From Alphaproteobacteria bacterium (GTDB lineage: Bacteria; Pseudomonadota; Alphaproteobacteria; Micavibrionales; Micavibrionaceae): 32,070 bases of DNA. This document shows, piece by piece, positions 2,153 to 23,318 of this stretch (within the stretch, counting starts at the first letter, position 1; every line of letters begins with the position of its first letter). The stretch covers positions 1 to 32,070 of the forward strand of contig JANQIB010000003.1 of NCBI GenBank assembly GCA_028282385.1, given 5' to 3'. A program made the position numbers and the translations under genes. The notes below the pieces were generated by a model that ran no database searches, was not told the DNA's origin, and saw nothing but the letters and a program-made list of their open reading frames with translations.

Positions 2153-3076
2153 ATGCAAAAAACAGTTTCCGAAGAGATAGAGATTTACCGGTTTGACTCC
2201 GGGCAGGCGGGGCCTGCCCTGACGATTACAGGTGCGGTGCACGGCAATGAACCATGCGGGCCGAAGGCGCTGCGCCGTTTGATTGATCTGCTGGAGAGCG
2301 GGGAGATTGAAATCACACAAGGGAGCCTGACCCTGATCCCTGTCTGTAATCCGCGCGCTTATGAACAAAATGTCAGGTTTGTCGAATATAACCTCAACCG
2401 TTCCATGTATCCGCGGGCAGAGGATGAGATCGAACATTATGAAGACCGGTTGCGGTCTGTCCTGTGCCCGGTTTTAGAAAAAACGGATTATCTGCTCGAT
2501 CTTCATTCCTGCACGGCGCCGAGTGATCCGTTCCTGATTGTTGATGGCGATCTGACATCACCGGATTACAGGCGCTTTGTCGATGCTGCCGGGACGGGCT
2601 ATGTGCTCTGGGGGTGGTCGGAGGCTGTCGGACAAAGTGAAACGCCGGAAGATCCAAGCCATGCGCAAGGGATGGGGGAGTATGCCCGCCTGCACGGCGC
2701 GCATGCTTTGACAATTGAATGCGGAAATCACGATCATCCGCGCGGCGCGGATTTTGCGTTTCAGGCGGCGCTGGGTGTGATTGAAGCGGTGGGCGTTGCG
2801 GTCATTTCTGAAACTGTGAAGCCAGATGATGTTTTTGAAAAAGAGAAAAAAGTCATTCGCTTTAAGTCTGTCACGTTCAAGCAGCAGGAAGGCCGCTTTT
2901 TCCAGGACTGGGTCAATCTGCACCCGGTTCAAAAAGGCACACCTGTTGCCGAAGAGGAAGGCGGGCAGGTTTTTACCATGCCCGAAGATGGATTTCTGAT
3001 CATGCCCAAAGAGAACGTCAAGATTGGTGAGGAATGGTTTTATGTTGGGGTGGAAGAGGAGTTCCTGGCATCATGA
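2153..3076 (+). CDS. Succinylglutamate desuccinylase/aspartoacylase (AstE/AspA)-family zinc hydrolase
   Basis: This is a predicted zinc-dependent amidohydrolase of the M14-like AstE/AspA family, whose members deacylate N-acyl amino acids or related amides. The zinc site is visible: H30-G-N-E33 near the N-terminus and H118 in LDLHSC. Further family signatures are N80-LNR83 and E189 in IECGNHD. The length of 307 residues is normal for the family. The C-terminal approx. 90 residues form a small beta-rich domain, as in relatives. The substrate cannot be read from sequence; there is no arginine-catabolism operon around it, so AST-pathway AstE is unlikely. No strong Shine-Dalgarno precedes the ATG. 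Its TGA overlaps the ATG of mtaB (ATGA at 3073-3076), implying translational coupling. Confidence 0.85.
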   Translation: MQKTVSEEIEIYRFDSGQAGPALTITGAVHGNEPCGPKALRRLIDLLESGEIEITQGSLTLIPVCNPRAYEQNVRFVEYNLNRSMYPRAEDEIEHYEDRLRSVLCPVLEKTDYLLDLHSCTAPSDPFLIVDGDLTSPDYRRFVDAAGTGYVLWGWSEAVGQSETPEDPSHAQGMGEYARLHGAHALTIECGNHDHPRGADFAFQAALGVIEAVGVAVISETVKPDDVFEKEKKVIRFKSVTFKQQEGRFFQDWVNLHPVQKGTPVAEEEGGQVFTMPEDGFLIMPKENVKIGEEWFYVGVEEEFLAS

Positions 3077-4431
3077 CAAAAAAGGCCCCGGAGCTTGTGA
3101 CCTTTGGCTGCCGCCTCAATACCTATGAGAGCGAGGTGATGCGCGCGCATGCAGCGAATGCCGGGCTTGAAGAGGCGATTATCTTCAACACTTGTGCGGT
3201 TACCAAAGAGGCAGAACGCCAGGCACGTCAGGCGATCCGGAAAGCGCGGAAGAAAAATCCAAAAGCTAAAATTTTGGTCACGGGCTGTGCGGCGCAGATT
3301 AACCCGGAGATGTTCGCCGGGATGGAGGAAGTCGACCGGGTGATCGGGAATGACCTGAAGCTGAAGGGTGAGGTATGGAAGGATTTAAACCCCTCACCCT
3401 CCCACGCTACGCGCGGGCCCCTCCCTCTCCCTATGGGAGAGGGCAACGAAGCTTCGCCGCAAAGCGGCGTTAGCGGAGTGGGTGAGGGGTTATATAACCA
3501 TCCTAAAATTCTTGTGAACGACATCATGTCGGTGAAAGAAACGGCCGGACATTTGATTGAAGGCGTGGAAGGTCATGCGCGGGCCTTCATCCAGGTGCAA
3601 AATGGCTGCGATCACCGCTGCACGTTTTGTATTATTCCTTACGGGCGAGGGAATTCCCGGTCTGTCCCGATTGGTGAAATTGCCGCGCAGGTGAGAAAAC
3701 TCGTCGAGAGCGGTTATAACGAAATTGTCTTTACCGGCGTGGATGTGACGTCTTACCGCGCCGATCTGCCGGGGCAGCCGACACTGGGCCAGATGATAAG
3801 GCGGGTGCTGGCGCTTGTGCCGGAACTTCCAAGGTTGAGGTTATCTTCTCTCGATCCGGTGGAAATTGACGACGATCTTTGGCGGTTGATTGCAGAAGAA
3901 GAACGTTTGATGCCGCATCTTCACATGTCTTTGCAGGCCGGTGATGACATGATCCTCAAACGGATGAAGCGCCGCCATTTACGCGCGGATGCAATTGCCA
4001 TGTGTGAGCGGGCGAGGGCGTATAGGCCGGATATGGCGTTTGGCGCGGATATTATTGCCGGTTTTCCAACCGAAACGGATGAGATGTTTGAAAACACCAT
4101 GCGCATTGTTGAAGAGTGCGACCTGACCTTTCTGCATGTCTTCCCGTATTCGGAGCGGGAGGGAACCCCGGCGGCCAAAATGCCGCAAGTGCCGCATGAG
4201 GCCCGCAAAGAGCGCGCCGCCCGTTTGCGGGAACTGGGCAGGCGGCAAATGCAAAAATTCCTGCAAAATCATGCCGGAAAAGAATATGAGGTGATTGTTG
4301 AGCAGAATAATACCGGCCGCACACCCCATTTCGCGCAGGTCAGGCTTGACCAAAATCAGGTGGCAGGCCGCCTGATCCGTGCTAAAACAATAGAAGTAGA
4401 GGGTGATTATTTAACAGGAGAAATAATTTAA
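3073..4431 (+). CDS. mtaB: tRNA t6A37 methylthiotransferase MtaB (radical SAM), with repeat-derived insertion
   Basis: MtaB converts t6A37 to ms2t6A37 in tRNAs reading ANN codons, using two [4Fe-4S] clusters. The product is 452 residues from the ATG at 3073, which overlaps the previous stop as ATGA; in-frame starts further upstream would only extend into the preceding gene. The N-terminal UPF0004 domain carries the auxiliary-cluster cysteines C13, C41 and C72. The radical SAM cluster is C179-x3-C183-x2-C186 in NGCDHRCTFC. A TRAM-like C-terminus follows. Residues about 106-140 are low-complexity (Pro, Ser, Gly-rich) and are encoded by a family B palindromic repeat. This insertion lies between the UPF0004 and radical SAM domains and keeps the frame open. 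ftsY follows one base after the stop, the usual alphaproteobacterial order. Confidence 0.93.
   Translation: MTKKAPELVTFGCRLNTYESEVMRAHAANAGLEEAIIFNTCAVTKEAERQARQAIRKARKKNPKAKILVTGCAAQINPEMFAGMEEVDRVIGNDLKLKGEVWKDLNPSPSHATRGPLPLPMGEGNEASPQSGVSGVGEGLYNHPKILVNDIMSVKETAGHLIEGVEGHARAFIQVQNGCDHRCTFCIIPYGRGNSRSVPIGEIAAQVRKLVESGYNEIVFTGVDVTSYRADLPGQPTLGQMIRRVLALVPELPRLRLSSLDPVEIDDDLWRLIAEEERLMPHLHMSLQAGDDMILKRMKRRHLRADAIAMCERARAYRPDMAFGADIIAGFPTETDEMFENTMRIVEECDLTFLHVFPYSEREGTPAAKMPQVPHEARKERAARLRELGRRQMQKFLQNHAGKEYEVIVEQNNTGRTPHFAQVRLDQNQVAGRLIRAKTIEVEGDYLTGEII
3388..3491. repeat. Palindromic repeat, family B copy 1, in frame inside mtaB
   Basis: Terminal arms AACCCCTCACCC (3388-3399) and GGGTGAGGGGTT (3480-3491) are perfect 12-bp inverted repeats. 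An internal hairpin pairs CCCTCTCCC (3423-3431) with GGGAGAGGG (3435-3443). The whole element is translated as part of MtaB. Related paired copies are at 8425-8602 and 17036-17201. Confidence 0.9.
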
Positions 4432-8424: not shown

Positions 8425-8602
8425 CCCTCTCCCTCAAGGGAGAGGGCAACAAGACTTGGCTTTTCGTAAGAAAGGGCGTAGTCGAGGGGGTGAGGGGTTA
8501 TAATCTTTCCTAAAACAAATATTTTACCCCCTCACCCAGCTTCGCCTAAGTTCAGCCTGTGGCTTCACTAAGGCTGCGCAACCCTCTCCCCATGGGAGAG
8601 GG
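8425..8602. repeat. Paired inverted family B repeats (copies 2 and 3)
   Basis: The left unit runs from the hairpin CCCTCTCCC (8425-8433)/GGGAGAGGG (8438-8446) to GGGTGAGGGG ending at 8497. The right unit is its inverse, from CCCCTCACCC at about 8528 to the hairpin CCCTCTCCC (8582-8590)/GGGAGAGGG (8594-8602). An AT-rich spacer of about 30 bases separates them. The pair takes up most of the 343-base gap 8310-8653. The rest of that gap has two small hairpins (near 8340 and 8364-8378) and a terminator, and no credible gene. Confidence 0.88.
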
Positions 8603-11333: not shown

Positions 11334-12614
11334 TTACGCCTCATCCTCCGGCGCGGCGTAAGTGCCTGCCGGCGAGCTTTCTCTGATTTGCCATGGGCGT
11401 AAATCCGGGCCGATGCTTTCAGCCACACGTAGTCCCGCAGACAGACCGTCTTCGTGGAAACCATAGCCGCACCACGCCCCGCAATACCATGTATTTCTTT
11501 TCCCCTGTATTTTTCGGAGGTCTCGCCAGACTTTCATCGCATCCCCGGTGAAAACAGGGGTGGAGAAATTCATTTCATGTAGGATATTGGCCGGCTTTTT
11601 TGCAGGGTTGAGCGTTAAGAAGTAATTCTGATCTGTTCCTAAAGAAGGCTGCATTTTGTTCAGCCAATGGGTGGTGCAAACCTTACCGTCTTTCGTGGAG
11701 TGACTGTAATTCCAAGCCGACCAGACAGGTTTCAGGCCGGGCATAAGGCTCTCATCCTGGTGCAGGTAAGCTTTGTTCAGGGTATAAGGAACATGTCCGA
11801 GAATTTCTTTTTCCGCATCGCTGGCATCCTGCAAGAGCCTGAGCGCCTGATCTGTATGGCAAGCCATGACAACCGCATCATACAGGCCGAGATTGCCGCG
11901 GCTGTCAGCGACTTCAATACCTTCGGCGCGCCGGTAAACAGAAACGGCGGCAGTGCCGAAAAGAATTTTATCTTCGAAAGGGGCAATCATTTTTTCAACA
12001 TATGACGCGTTTCCTTCCTCAACACTCAGCCATTGAGGACTGTTTTTTGACATGATGCCATTGCTTTTGATGATACGGATAAAGGCGCGCGCAGGCATTT
12101 TTAAAATACTGCTTGTACCCACCGACCACATGCAGGCGGCCAGAGGCAAAAGGTGGTTCTTCACGAAATATTGTGAATAGCGATGTTTTTTTAAATAAGC
12201 ACCCAGTGGCATATTCGGTTCTTTGCTGTCGAGATATCCCGGCGCGGTGGTGTAAAAGCGCTTCATATCTTTACTCATAGCCAGAAAAGCCGGTGAGACC
12301 TTGTTTTTGGGCTGAGCAAAAAGATTATGCATGGCATATTCCAGTTTTCCGCCATCGGTCGAGAGTGCAAAGCTCATGTCAGATTTGGCGGTTGGAATAT
12401 CCAGAATATCCAAGAGCGTGGTAAAATTCGGCGAGGTTTGGTCATTGAACAGATTAAAGCCGATATTAATTGGCGGGTGGCCTTCAAGAGAGAGGCTTGA
12501 AGCGTGACCGCCGGGACGGTCATGGCGCTCATAGACCGTAATGTCATGTGTATTGTGCAAAAGCCAGCTGGCTGCATTCCCTGAGATTCCCGTACCTATT
12601 ACCGCAATTTTCAT
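11334..12614 (-). CDS. COG2907-type FAD/NAD(P)-binding amine-oxidase-like protein
   Basis: The 426-residue protein opens with a Rossmann dinucleotide motif, IGTGISG (6-12), after strand KIAV. The second strand end is VYERHDRPGGHASS, the form typical of COG2907 flavoproteins, which belong to the amine oxidase/phytoene desaturase superfamily. A C-terminal FAD-binding segment reads WYCGAWCGYGFHEDGLSAGLRVAE. COG2907 genes commonly neighbour cfa, DUF1365 and photolyase genes in proteobacteria and are linked to modification of unsaturated membrane fatty acids. Here only phrB remains adjacent, so the exact reaction is uncertain. The ATG at 12614 and its AAGGAA binding site form part of a segment shared with the family F repeat at 23174-23192. 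The LD-carboxypeptidase gene follows one base after the stop. Confidence 0.85.
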   Translation of the reverse strand: MKIAVIGTGISGNAASWLLHNTHDITVYERHDRPGGHASSLSLEGHPPINIGFNLFNDQTSPNFTTLLDILDIPTAKSDMSFALSTDGGKLEYAMHNLFAQPKNKVSPAFLAMSKDMKRFYTTAPGYLDSKEPNMPLGAYLKKHRYSQYFVKNHLLPLAACMWSVGTSSILKMPARAFIRIIKSNGIMSKNSPQWLSVEEGNASYVEKMIAPFEDKILFGTAAVSVYRRAEGIEVADSRGNLGLYDAVVMACHTDQALRLLQDASDAEKEILGHVPYTLNKAYLHQDESLMPGLKPVWSAWNYSHSTKDGKVCTTHWLNKMQPSLGTDQNYFLTLNPAKKPANILHEMNFSTPVFTGDAMKVWRDLRKIQGKRNTWYCGAWCGYGFHEDGLSAGLRVAESIGPDLRPWQIRESSPAGTYAAPEDEA

Positions 12615-12627
12615 TTCGTCATTTCCT

Positions 12628-12705
12628 TTTATTTTTGCAGTGCGTTTCCGCGCTCCTGACGTAGATTATCTACGCTGCGTCGCTTGCGCCTGCTGCAAAA
12701 ATAAA
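12628..12705. repeat. Palindromic repeat, family F copy 1
   Basis: Perfect 13-bp arms TTTATTTTTGCAG (12628-12640) and CTGCAAAAATAAA (12693-12705) enclose a central hairpin GTAGATTATCTAC (12661-12673). Between repeat and gene, bases 12612-12630 (CATTTCGTCATTTCCTTTT) are identical to 23174-23192, including the start codon of the following gene. The element fills the gap between phrB and the flavoprotein gene. Confidence 0.87.
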
Positions 12706-12729
12706 ATCAAACGACGACTGTCTTTTAGA

Positions 12730-16644: not shown

Positions 16645-17070
16645 ATGACACAGCGCAACATAGAGGACCTTGCCGAAAACTTTGCGCTCTTCACCGATTG
16701 GGAAGAGCGCTATGGCTATCTGATTGAGCTGGGCAAGGACCTGCCGCCAATGGATGAGGCGTTCAAAACTGATCATACATTCGTGCGCGGCTGTACCTCA
16801 CGGGTCTGGCTTGTGGCAGAAAAAGACGGGCAGGGGCGCTATCATTTCACTGCCGACAGCGATGCGCATATTGTCCGTGGATTAATTGCCCTCTTGCTCG
16901 CGGCCTACCAGGATAAAACCGCGGAGGAGATCGCGGCGATAGAAATTGAAAGGTTTTTTGAAAAAATCGGCCTGAACGAACATCTGTCCCCCAACCGCCG
17001 GAATGGTTTTTTCGCGATGGTGGAAAAAATAAAATCCCTCTCCCTTCAGGGAGAGGGCAACGAGGCTTAA
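16645..17070 (+). CDS. sufE: Cysteine desulfuration protein SufE, C-terminus supplied by a repeat
   Basis: SufE accepts persulfide sulfur from the SufS desulfurase and passes it to the SufBCD scaffold for Fe-S assembly. The 141-residue product carries the active cysteine C50 in VRGCTSRVWL, and the family-typical GLNEHLSPNRRNGFFAMVEKI block near the end. The last approx. ten residues (SLSLQGEGNEA) and the TAA at 17068-17070 are encoded by a family B palindromic repeat that starts at 17036. The native 3' end therefore appears overwritten just past the conserved fold, and the protein is probably still functional. No other suf genes are in the window. The gene is divergent from clpX across 158 bases. 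Confidence 0.93.
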   Translation: MTQRNIEDLAENFALFTDWEERYGYLIELGKDLPPMDEAFKTDHTFVRGCTSRVWLVAEKDGQGRYHFTADSDAHIVRGLIALLLAAYQDKTAEEIAAIEIERFFEKIGLNEHLSPNRRNGFFAMVEKIKSLSLQGEGNEA

Positions 17071-17201
17071 AGCCGACAGGTTTTTAGCCGCAGTGGGTGA
17101 GGGTGTTTTTCTATAGATTCAGGCACCCTCACCCAGCTCCAGCTAAATTCGCGCTGGTGCGCTCATTAAGCTTGCACAACCCTCTCCCTCAAGGGAGAGG
17201 G
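17036..17201. repeat. Paired inverted family B repeats (copies 4 and 5)
   Basis: The left unit runs from the hairpin CCCTCTCCC (17036-17044)/GGGAGAGGG (17049-17057) to GGGTGAGGG ending at 17103. The right unit is the inverse, from CCCTCACCC (17126-17134) to the hairpin ending in GGGAGAGGG (17193-17201). It has the same head-to-head arrangement as 8425-8602. The left unit contains the sufE stop codon; the right unit ends ten bases before the stop of the convergent gene at 17212. Confidence 0.88.
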
Positions 17202-17211
17202 AAATGTTATT

Positions 17212-17898
17212 TTATCTATTTGTATTCGTCGGCACGCCCGGTTTAGGAAGCTGTTTGCCTTCTTTTTCCGTGATGGAATTCAGGATGTCTTTAAAGACCT
17301 CATCGCCTTCGGCATGTTCGCCGCCGATCAATTCGGCCTGCACGGTAAAGACCGAATTCGGCCCGACCCAGAGCTGCGCGGTATAAATTTTCCCCTGGCG
17401 GCCTGTTTCTCCCGTGCCGGTGAGCGTTGCCTGCTTGGTCATTTCCCGCTCATCATAATTGATATTATATTCCCTGATGAATTTGCGTCCGACCATGGCT
17501 TCCAGCGCCGTGCTCATCACGCGCTCATTATAACGTGCCATGTTTTCCGGCGTGGAAGGCATACAGCTCACGCTGACATCCACAGTCGTGGACAGGTCAT
17601 AGACCATTGTGTAGCTGGTGACCTGGTAGCAGGTTTCCTGCTCCGGCGGGCAGCGGCGCGCGGTGAATGGCGGCTCCGGGAACACAATTTCAAAGTCGCA
17701 ATAATCCGGCGCGTAAGTGCGGGCGGCGAGATCCTCTTCAGCTTTTTTAAGGTCGGCCTCCATCTTTGCCGCATCTTCGGCGGTGATGCCTTGTTCCGGT
17801 GTGCTTTCTTCTGCAGGCGCTGCGTCGTCCTGTGCAAAGGTCGTGCCGGGCAGGGCCATCATGCTTAGGGTCAGTAAGAGGCTGAGTGTTTTGGTCAT
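17212..17898 (-). CDS. Hypothetical secreted/periplasmic protein
   Basis: The 228-residue product has a clear Sec signal peptide (MTKTLSLLLTLSMMALPGTTFA, likely cleaved before QDD), then an acidic Glu/Ala-rich linker (about 24-60). A globular region with four cysteines (DYCDF, RRCPP, ETCYQ, SVSCMP) follows that could form two disulfides. The tail is Pro/Thr/Asn-rich. I recognise no family. The ATG at 17898 is chosen because it overlaps the hisS stop as ATGA and has a GGAG seven bases upstream; a TTG at 17910 would be the only longer start. It is probably coupled to hisS. Its 3' end lies next to the paired family B repeats. Confidence 0.75.
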   Translation of the reverse strand: MTKTLSLLLTLSMMALPGTTFAQDDAAPAEESTPEQGITAEDAAKMEADLKKAEEDLAARTYAPDYCDFEIVFPEPPFTARRCPPEQETCYQVTSYTMVYDLSTTVDVSVSCMPSTPENMARYNERVMSTALEAMVGRKFIREYNINYDEREMTKQATLTGTGETGRQGKIYTAQLWVGPNSVFTVQAELIGGEHAEGDEVFKDILNSITEKEGKQLPKPGVPTNTNR

Positions 17899-19289
17899 GG
17901 TTTGCTCCAATCTGCCGGATCGGCTTGTTCCTGCGTGCCTTCATTCATGTCTTTGATTTCATGAGCTTTACCATCTTCGAACGGTGGAAACCAGACAAAC
18001 GGGATGCCTTTCTTCTCAGCGTAAGAGAGCTGCTTACCGATTTTTTGCGGGGCGTGGTACATCTCGACCTTAAAGCCGCGTTCCCGTAAGGTACGCGCCG
18101 TTGCGGCGGCTTCACTGCGTTTTTCTTCCGAGGGCAGGGCCATCAGGATATCGGCAGGACCTTTGGCGGCGGGTTTCAGGTGCCCGGTTTGTTTGAGCAC
18201 ATCAAACAGGCGGGAAAAGCCGATCGAGATTCCAACGCCCGGCAGGTGTTTATTGATGAAAGAACCAGCCAGGTCGTCATACCGCCCGCCGGAACAGACT
18301 GAGCCGGTAAATTCCGGCACGTCGAGAAGTTGCGTCTCATAGACCGTACCGGTGTAATAATCCAGCCCGCGGACGATGGAGAGATCGCCGGCAACAGCGT
18401 GGTCTGGCAGATAGGAGAGATAATCGAGAACAAAGGAAAGTTCTTCGATGCCTTCATTTATTGTCTGGATTGCCGCGTCGCTGACGCTCCTCGCAATGAC
18501 GTCATTGCGAGCGATGAAATCGCGAAGCAATCCAGAAAAGTCTTTTGGTATGGCTTTGATTTTTGCGAATTCAAGAATGAATTCGGCTTGTTTGTGGGCT
18601 TCATCTGCATTGATATCCAGGGCAGATTTAAGAATGCTTATTAAAGTTGTTATAAGTTCAGTTTGTTTTTCTTTTTCAATTTTATCGATAGTTCTTGTAA
18701 TCGAAACAATATCTTTATCGTTTGATACTCCAAGAGCGTTGAGCATTCCTATCAGAATTTTCCGGTTACTAATCCTGTGCTGGATCCGGCCGATATCAAG
18801 CCCGTCAAGCGTGTCGTAAATCATCGCCGGGATTTCGGCGTCGAAATGGATCGGCAGGTGATCGACATTGATGACGTCGATATCGCACTGTGTGAATTCC
18901 CGCATCCGGCCCATTTGCGGACGCTCGCCGCGCCAGACGCGTTGCATCTGGTAGCGCTTAAACGGGAAGGTCAGATCGTTGAAATGCTGGGCGACATAAC
19001 GCGCCAGCGGCACGGTCTGGTCAAAATGCAGGGCGAGGCGGGCGTCTTTACTGTCATCATCCTCTTTATGCAGGCGCTCAAGGACATAGATTTCCTTATC
19101 AACTTCGCCCTTGGCGAGGAGCACGTCGATTTCTTCCACGCTCGGCGTTTCAATCGAACAAAAGCCATAACTTTCAAAGGTGGCGCGGATATGATCCAGC
19201 CAGCGTTGTTCTACCGCCCGCCATTCCGGCAGCCATTCCGGAAAACCGCTAATCGCTTTGGGTTTATAGATTTTACGTTTTTCACTCAT
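17895..19289 (-). CDS. hisS: Histidyl-tRNA synthetase with a repeat-derived insertion
   Basis: HisRS charges tRNA-His. From the ATG at 19289 (MSEKRKIYKP) the product is 464 residues; an in-frame ATG at 19301 lies in repeat-like sequence and is less likely. Class II motif 2 is VWRGERPQMGRMREFTQ (118-134), and the HisA motif is RGLDYYTG (307-314) followed by GGRYDDL. The C-terminal anticodon-binding domain is present (DILMALPSEE onward). Residues 251-275 are encoded by a family A palindrome (18464-18536), inside the helical insertion region between motif 2 and HisA. The adjoining stretch encoding residues about 177-250 is sharply AT-rich (about 32% GC over 18541-18720 by hand count, against 58% at 18781-18840). 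The downstream secreted-protein gene overlaps by ATGA. Confidence 0.94.
   Translation of the reverse strand: MSEKRKIYKPKAISGFPEWLPEWRAVEQRWLDHIRATFESYGFCSIETPSVEEIDVLLAKGEVDKEIYVLERLHKEDDDSKDARLALHFDQTVPLARYVAQHFNDLTFPFKRYQMQRVWRGERPQMGRMREFTQCDIDVINVDHLPIHFDAEIPAMIYDTLDGLDIGRIQHRISNRKILIGMLNALGVSNDKDIVSITRTIDKIEKEKQTELITTLISILKSALDINADEAHKQAEFILEFAKIKAIPKDFSGLLRDFIARNDVIARSVSDAAIQTINEGIEELSFVLDYLSYLPDHAVAGDLSIVRGLDYYTGTVYETQLLDVPEFTGSVCSGGRYDDLAGSFINKHLPGVGISIGFSRLFDVLKQTGHLKPAAKGPADILMALPSEEKRSEAAATARTLRERGFKVEMYHAPQKIGKQLSYAEKKGIPFVWFPPFEDGKAHEIKDMNEGTQEQADPADWSKP
18464..18536. repeat. Palindromic repeat, family A copy 2, in frame inside hisS
   Basis: The outer arms TCTGGATTGC (18464-18473) and GCAATCCAGA (18527-18536) are perfect 10-bp inverted repeats. 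The centre holds CGCAATGACG next to TCATTGCGAG. Compared with 1022-1115 the two half-units are joined at the opposite end, giving an inside-out arrangement. It is translated as 25 residues of HisRS. Confidence 0.9.
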
Positions 19290-19316
19290 ATTTCTTGTCA
19301 TCCCGAGCTTGCTTTA

Positions 19317-22579: not shown

Positions 22580-23176
22580 TTACTTCTCTATTTTTTCAAA
22601 TTTCTCATAGGCCAGTTTCAGGATTGTATAGGACATATTGATCTGTTTGAGAAGGTCTTCGGCGTCTTTATCGCCGGGATTGAAATCAGGATGGTATTTT
22701 TTGGCGAGTTCCTTGTAGCGCGTCTTGATGATTTTAAGGTCTACCGGCGGTTCCAGCCCGAAAATGGCGAGCGCCTCCATTTCCGGTGTATTCCGGTTTT
22801 CTTCGAATGTATAGCGGCCTTCGCTTTTGGGTGGGTCCTGCTCTGTATAGTGATAGGTCCGCCAGGCCTGGTTATAAAGCTCTTCGGCAAAATCCGCGCC
22901 GGCATCGTAGCGGCGGGTTGGCCGGTCGCCGTACAGGGAATTCAGAATATGATCTTCAACTTCCTGCGCATTCATCCCCTCAAAGAAGTTCCAGGCCTTG
23001 TTATATTCAGTGATATGTTCCTGACAGAACCAGTAATGCTCCGACAGAGAACGGTCTTTAGGCGCGCGAAAATCCCCGGTACCGGTGCAGCCGGGCATAT
23101 CGCAGGCACGGGTTTTCTGACGCGGCTTTTTGTCGTCAAATTCAGGACTGTGCGGTTTTAGGTTTATTTTCGGCAT
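22580..23176 (-). CDS. DnaJ-domain protein with N-terminal zinc-finger-like region
   Basis: The 198-residue protein has a C-terminal J domain: [16 protein letters not shown] with HPD at 162-164, followed by [20 protein letters not shown] domains stimulate the ATPase of DnaK-type chaperones. The N-terminal part carries C25, C30, C51 and H54 (C-x4-C-x20-C-x2-H), which may bind zinc. It lacks the G/F and repeat zinc domains of true DnaJ. Its position upstream of cobS, and divergent from bolA, is common in alphaproteobacteria, suggesting a client linked to the CobST complex or to bolA-related Fe-S metabolism; that is inference. The start codon and the AAGGAA binding site belong to a 19-base segment identical to that before the COG2907 gene. 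Confidence 0.9.
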
Positions 23177-23194
23177 TTCGTCATTTCCTTTTGC

Positions 23195-23262
23195 TTTTAC
23201 AGTGCGTTGCTGCGCTCCTAAAGTAGGTCATCTACTTGTCGTCGCTTGCGCCTGCTGTAAAA
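23195..23262. repeat. Palindromic repeat, family F copy 2
   Basis: Arms TTTTACAG (23195-23202) and CTGTAAAA (23255-23262) enclose a central hairpin AAGTAG...CTACTT (23221-23236). The flank 23174-23192 is identical to 12612-12630. The element occupies the divergent promoter region between the J-domain gene and bolA. Confidence 0.85.
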
Positions 23263-23318
23263 ACAAAATAAAACGACTACAACCTTCCTATTATACAGGA
23301 AAAGAAAGAAGAAAAGAT

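Follow-up and report, generated by a model that had tools for sequence, protein, structure and literature searches.

TM_ECO is a potential intrastrand triplex motif, CCCTCNCCCN3-6GGGNGAGGGN3GGGNGAGGG, of which 3,610 copies were reported in 262 proteobacterial genomes with no function assigned (Holder et al. 2015, PMC4666352). In E. coli MG1655 these copies are always intergenic and unassociated with mobile elements, the TM_ECO loci were reported to be unstable without a known mover, and in vitro the E. coli motif was observed to form an intrastrand triplex (PMC4666352). The Rickettsia palindromic elements are repeats of approximately 100 to 150 bp that occur in frame in housekeeping genes (Ogata 2000, reviewed in PMC10969869; PMC3767692). 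The DUF559 proteins (PF04480), with which one palindromic repeat family is connected below, resemble Vsr and include VsrA of Caulobacter (PMC12907096), E. coli YcjD, and the solved structure PDB 3hrl. To date, DUF559 has been proposed to act in mismatch repair, in Caulobacter (PMC12907096). No link between DUF559 and palindromic repeats or in-frame insertions was found in the literature that could be searched, most subscription papers lying outside it, and the priority of such a link is uncertain.

The window examined here, meaning the whole analysed stretch of 32,070 nucleotides, comes from a Micavibrionaceae MAG of 1.77 Mb, which is labelled G000 among the compared genomes. The product of its mtaB gene scored 447.7 bits against NCBIfam TIGR01579 (cut-off, 357), and the UPF0004 and Radical_SAM domains were mapped to residues 8–92 and 173–344, respectively (Pfam PF00919 and PF04055). 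The first-pass annotation had described a palindrome at 3388–3491 that is translated between these two domains. Both its perfect 12-bp terminal inverted repeats and its hairpin with a 9-bp stem were located there, and the element is read in the mtaB frame (start at 3073) as residues 106–140 (Table 1). The element is 104 bp long when its AA/TT ends are counted and 100 bp when it is taken as CCCCTCACCC...GGGTGAGGGG. Compared with dinucleotide shuffles, the 110 nt around the element gave z values of −6.6 as DNA and −6.5 as RNA, and none of 200 shuffles was as good. An Rfam search of the window gave no matches.

Table 1. Positions of mtaB, its inserted element, and the related doublets in the window
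Feature	Position	Strand	Remarks
mtaB, tRNA t6A methylthiotransferase, 452 aa, with in-frame insert	3073..4431	+	TIGR01579, PF00919, PF04055
Whole inserted palindromic element	3388..3491	+	encodes MtaB residues 106-140
Left terminal inverted repeat AACCCCTCACCC	3388..3399	+	perfect 12 bp
Central hairpin CCCTCTCCC-TAT-GGGAGAGGG, TM_ECO-type core	3423..3443	+	9-bp stem, 3423-3431/3435-3443
Right terminal inverted repeat GGGTGAGGGGTT	3480..3491	+	perfect 12 bp
Intergenic mirrored doublet	8425..8602		hairpin - GGGTGAGGGG - 30-bp spacer - CCCCTCACCC - hairpin
Second intergenic mirrored doublet, same family	17036..17201		hairpin search and genome copies

The MtaB sequences of relatives were aligned around the insertion site. 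The linker was short in 25 of the 29 (no more than approximately 4 residues above the shortest), with a gap exactly at the element, and MtaB of the genus-mate G001 represents the empty site, in which W-GAPQEEK is directly followed by VLVNDIM. Longer, unrelated linkers were present in the relatives G003, G059, and G080, and this site thus accepts additional length anyway. MtaB of G005, which belongs to another genus, contains a half-element, LFPSPSPADAGSPPSPLGER, at the same position and in the same frame; this may reflect either an insertion in a common ancestor that G001 later lost or a separate insertion event. No target-site duplication was seen when the sites were compared with G001, whose flanks are too diverged to exclude one.

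The cluster cysteines C13, C41, C72, C179, C183, and C186 were invariant among 20 orthologues, in agreement with the earlier statement that the insert disturbs none of them. The dN/dS values of the mtaB flanks against G001 were 0.05 and 0.08, indicating strong purifying selection, and these values integrate the whole divergence from G001, not just the time since insertion. The description of MtaB as a working enzyme is therefore reasonable. Since the insertion, too, MtaB presumably still works, and the insert is presumably retained in the protein. In an AlphaFold model, residues 108–142 had pLDDT values below 50, in a shallow alignment (20 rows) that left other parts low too; such values are to be expected of a floppy loop.

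A search for exact hairpins gave 56 copies in the genome, compared with 0 for a reversed control pattern, and 5 copies within the window, compared with 0.00 expected. Similar copies were found in many other places of the genome. The closest full-length copy of the MtaB element is that in YgfZ (86% identity), and its left half is 89% identical to the flank of a DUF559 gene on contig C149. A gap in orthologues and repetition through the genome were the two checks named in the first-pass annotation, and both outcomes support its proposal that a mobile or proliferating palindrome had been inserted. Related copies had also been described there for the non-coding DNA of the window; they are present, though with another architecture, as the two mirrored doublets of Table 1. 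The first of these resembles a DUF559 unit minus the gene. Element copies were also seen at many contig ends of G000 (C86, C105, C110, C125, C139, C156, and C157), and the repeats therefore probably fragment this assembly.

Two architectures were distinguished in the genome, namely mirrored doublets, hairpin-x-GGGTGAGG...CCTCACCC-y-hairpin (n = 21), and single-hairpin copies, whose full form is CCCTCACCC-x-hairpin-y-GGGTGAGGG (n = 15). By hand curation, 11 of the 15 full single copies were located in genes, whereas none of the 21 doublets was in an ORF (p = 2e-6); this curated set was picked after inspection of the data. With an automatic rule, 12 of 28 single copies and 0 of 21 doublets were in ORFs (p = 4e-4), one of these ORFs (C149:2264) looking spurious. 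The doublets were nearly always closed in all six frames (mean, 0.06 open), which would alone explain their intergenic location. The single copies had a mean of 3.1 of six frames open, similar to that of shuffles, and showed no stop-codon avoidance beyond base composition.

Intact single-hairpin copies were mostly located in frame within genes, whose identities were assigned by NCBIfam as those of MtaB, Mfd, YgfZ, LipB, TrmB, PepN, Lpd, and PriA. The element is read in all three reading frames among these hosts. Compared with G001, the inserts added 81 nt to PepN, 84 nt to Lpd, 57 nt to LipB, and 48 nt to Mfd, and the corresponding pieces of TrmB (two inserts) and YgfZ are contiguous in G001. 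In addition, the PriA insert was missing from the orthologues of G005, G058, and G071, and the YgfZ insert from that of G005. Copies in Der and in a LysM/M23 peptidase were rejected as clean insertions, since the G001 linkers are nearly equal in length (differences of +6 and +15 nt only). Past the first insert of PepN (L181) there is a second unusual stretch, HLSSRTPQAEGSHSTDGDFSASPRNDTI, which may be another translated repeat.

Two other repeats were observed in the window. Histidyl-tRNA synthetase contains RNDVIARSVSDAAIQ, the in-frame translation of a CGTC-type repeat at 18465–18502 in hisS (17895–19301, minus strand). This repeat differs from the MtaB element, is 92% identical to 1079–1116, and is present at the same site in G071 (another genus) and missing from G001, G005, and G058. 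A 107-bp direct repeat occupies 12612–12718 and 23174–23280; the two copies are 84% identical and intergenic, and the first has 25-bp inverted arms.

Judged by its 9-mers and hairpin, the MtaB repeat is assignable to the published TM_ECO family, although its outer GGGTGAGGG arm begins 36 nt past the hairpin instead of 3 and the strict pattern consequently failed. It shares with TM_ECO the C-rich and G-rich 9-mers CCCTCNCCC and GGGNGAGGG and a hairpin loop of 3–6 nt, and paired inverted copies occur both in TM_ECO and here. By eye, the strict pattern is matched by several of the present copies, such as those of Mfd and LipB (CCCTCTCCCTAACCCTCTCCCC..GGGGAGAGGG). In contrast to TM_ECO as described, many of the copies here are intragenic, and DUF559 is flanked by members of the family. 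The short length, the 12-bp terminal inverted repeats, and the high copy number are also reminiscent of MITEs. The first-pass annotation had considered the element akin to the Rickettsia palindromic elements. This comparison held for behaviour, because palindromes are found in frame in unrelated housekeeping genes (at least eight here) whose proteins are apparently functional; the sequence, on the other hand, belongs to TM_ECO, a widespread repeat whose connection with DUF559 could not be read from the letters of the window, and the likeness to the Rickettsia elements is best regarded as one of behaviour only. The present family also differs from the Rickettsia elements in that it occurs in another alphaproteobacterial order and is accompanied by a candidate nuclease gene.

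The genome contains two DUF559 genes, both among palindromic elements. The gene on C149 is located exactly between hairpin-GGGTGAGGGG and CCCCTCACCC-hairpin and adjoins rimM. The other lies within the PriA reading frame on C17; further along this contig come PriA and a solo element immediately ahead of the Walker A region. The upstream part of this PriA was found at the end of contig C125, inside another element copy, and we thus infer the C125–C17 junction. In G000, G069, and G056 (loci L190 (C149), L202, and L204), a DUF559 unit directly precedes rimM, which suggests a repeated landing spot.

Among the relatives, motifs were present within 150 bp of DUF559 in 20 of 31 loci and on both sides in 17, and the motif density was 9.5/kb near the gene compared with 0.135/kb farther off. 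The layout is regular, with GGGTGAGGG before the DUF559 gene and CCCTCACCC after it. The 30 MtaB control loci gave 9 motif matches in 118 kb, of which 7 belong to the inserted elements that G000 and G005 carry in MtaB itself, and no motif was nearby at any of 30 RAYT (PF01797) control loci of the relatives, that of G000 included. Phylum-wide, 21 of 29 DUF559 loci were flanked by motifs, 12 of them on both sides, with densities of 10.3 and 0.95/kb near and farther off; these loci are the best-scoring matches, a non-random sample. Approximately one third of the DUF559 loci had no exact motif nearby.

The copy number of the hairpin was compared with the presence of DUF559 in 115 genomes. The median number of hairpins was 7.5 with a strong DUF559 match and 0 without one (counts, p ~1e-12), and at least one hairpin was found in 31 of 36 and 18 of 79 genomes, respectively (p ~1e-10), these statistics ignoring relatedness between genera. 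DUF559 carriers were richer in hairpins in 10 of 10 informative genera, i.e., those with both states and any difference. No relation was observed between hairpin count and RAYT presence in the 115 genomes (p = 0.28). It speaks against a mobilising role of DUF559 that the assembly of G005, which has the half-element in MtaB, contains no DUF559.

DUF559 itself was also found as an in-frame insert. It is present in the PriA frame in eight genomes, and PriA domains were detected by Pfam on both sides in the six fusions checked in full. At one PriA site, G001 has a whole DUF559 unit, G000 a solo element, and G005, G058, and G071 nothing. In a DUF559 tree, the genes from G000 and G001 grouped as sisters (97/92), yet they are at different PriA sites, and the tree neither favoured nor rejected a single origin of the PriA insertions. 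Furthermore, DUF559 lies inside TrpF in G017 and inside HsdM in G143, a genome outside Alphaproteobacteria. A Pfam scan of the PriA, TrpF, and HsdM fusions detected host domains and nuclease families only, and no splicing domain. In other genomes DUF559 is joined in frame upstream of RimM, SufD, SufS, MurA, and CbiG, which may have separate starts. The arrangement upstream of the cysteine desulfurase SufS was seen in two genomes of different families (L205 and L216).

The DUF559 gene of E. coli K-12 is ycjD, whose product matches PF04480 at 167 bits and which was present in 3,364 of 5,426 genomes. The TM_ECO copy at 1351205–1351239 of K-12, number 9 of the published table (PMC4666352), is 167 bp from the annotated 3' end of ycjD, and a degenerate copy overlaps this end. 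In a sample of 60 spread E. coli records, one partial record being left out, the median number of matching places was 22 with ycjD (n = 37) and 7.5 without it (n = 22; p ~1e-9); because E. coli lineages confound this comparison and the ycjD place itself was counted, we take it as supporting evidence only. Despite the ycjD match, E. coli did not appear in the control list of the family search, so that absence from this list is no proof of absence.

We consider it probable (approximately 0.7) that the MtaB insert is a solo TM_ECO-like copy and that a DUF559 nuclease moves or maintains the units of this family. The complete unit would be hairpin-GGGTGAGGG-[DUF559 gene]-CCCTCACCC-hairpin, and the DUF559 protein, a Vsr-like PD-(D/E)XK nuclease, would cut DNA at or near the terminal or hairpin motifs, by which the unit would be moved or maintained. 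Solo copies and gene-less mirrored doublets would be non-autonomous derivatives of this unit. The insert would accordingly be one such solo copy of the proliferating CCCTCNCCC/GGGNGAGGG palindrome that landed in the interdomain linker of MtaB, by chance had an open frame in phase with the gene, and is probably translated as a tolerated, flexible loop rich in Pro, Ser, Gly, and Glu. Insertions into genes would persist at tolerant loops that are entered in a frame without stops, and it is through in-frame read-through that units and solo copies could settle inside essential genes. The arrangement resembles REP/REPIN-RAYT systems in that palindromes flank a small DNA-processing gene and non-autonomous mirrored doublets occur elsewhere (PMC2817692, PMC3116915). 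It differs from them in that the gene is DUF559 (Vsr-like PD-(D/E)XK) and not a Y1/HUH tyrosine transposase, the element ends in CCCCTCACCC/GGGTGAGGGG without a GTAG or CGTC tag, and many copies are translated in frame.

The mobilising role is one that we infer from association, and DUF559 could instead be a passenger or beneficiary of the repeat. In this reading the element and its in-frame copies are real, DUF559 genes were repeatedly trapped between hairpin-rich repeats acting as recombination hot spots, and the repeat would have spread by another route, such as replication slippage, recombination, or a host enzyme. The instability reported for TM_ECO loci without a known mover (PMC4666352), the third of DUF559 genes without an adjacent motif, and the hairpins in 18 of the 79 genomes that gave no strong DUF559 match are all consistent with such a passenger. 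However, the regular GGGTGAGGG-gene-CCCTCACCC layout with motifs on both sides in 17 of the 31 relatives' loci, and the prediction of copy number by DUF559 within genera (10 of 10), argue against it, as does the lack of any such association for RAYT, another small mobile-element gene of the same genomes. A passenger role thus appears rather unlikely. That RAYT itself moves the element as a REP/REPIN-like repeat has a known precedent in the REP-RAYT pairs (PMC2817692, PMC3733652), and the genome has one RAYT-family gene (PF01797, C102:10364). On the other hand, none of the 30 RAYT loci, its own included, had the CCCTCACCC/CCCTCTCCC motif nearby, hairpin counts showed no relation to RAYT presence, and the element ends carry no GTAG/CGTC tags. 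RAYT as the mover was therefore unsupported when tested and is very improbable.

It could also be supposed that the MtaB linker is merely a loop of variable length in which a palindrome arose in place, or that mtaB is an assembly chimera. The unrelated linkers of G003, G059, and G080 would fit the former, and the copies at several contig ends of the MAG, where the repeat breaks assemblies, the latter. However, the MtaB element is 86% identical to the YgfZ copy and similar to many others, its flanks form one mtaB frame with 84% (residues 143–450) and 83% (residues 1–103) identity to G001, and the separately assembled genome of G005 contains an element at this MtaB site. We regard this explanation as very improbable.

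A wider form of the nuclease reading, in which Vsr-like DUF559 nucleases would mobilise palindromic elements throughout Proteobacteria, TM_ECO of E. coli among them, as a nuclease-driven counterpart of REP-RAYT, is held tentatively, at slightly less than an even chance.

Rickettsia and Wolbachia are the main bacteria in which in-frame palindromes are known. The present genome belongs to a separate lineage and carries them in at least eight housekeeping genes whose orthologues are without them. The DUF559 link provides a concrete candidate mover for the TM_ECO repeats, and E. coli K-12, with ycjD next to a copy, offers a means to test it. If the link is true, DUF559, which is annotated as of unknown function, would gain a role. 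It may also be asked how much extra domain can be tolerated by proteins such as PriA or TrpF, which have nuclease-gene units within them.
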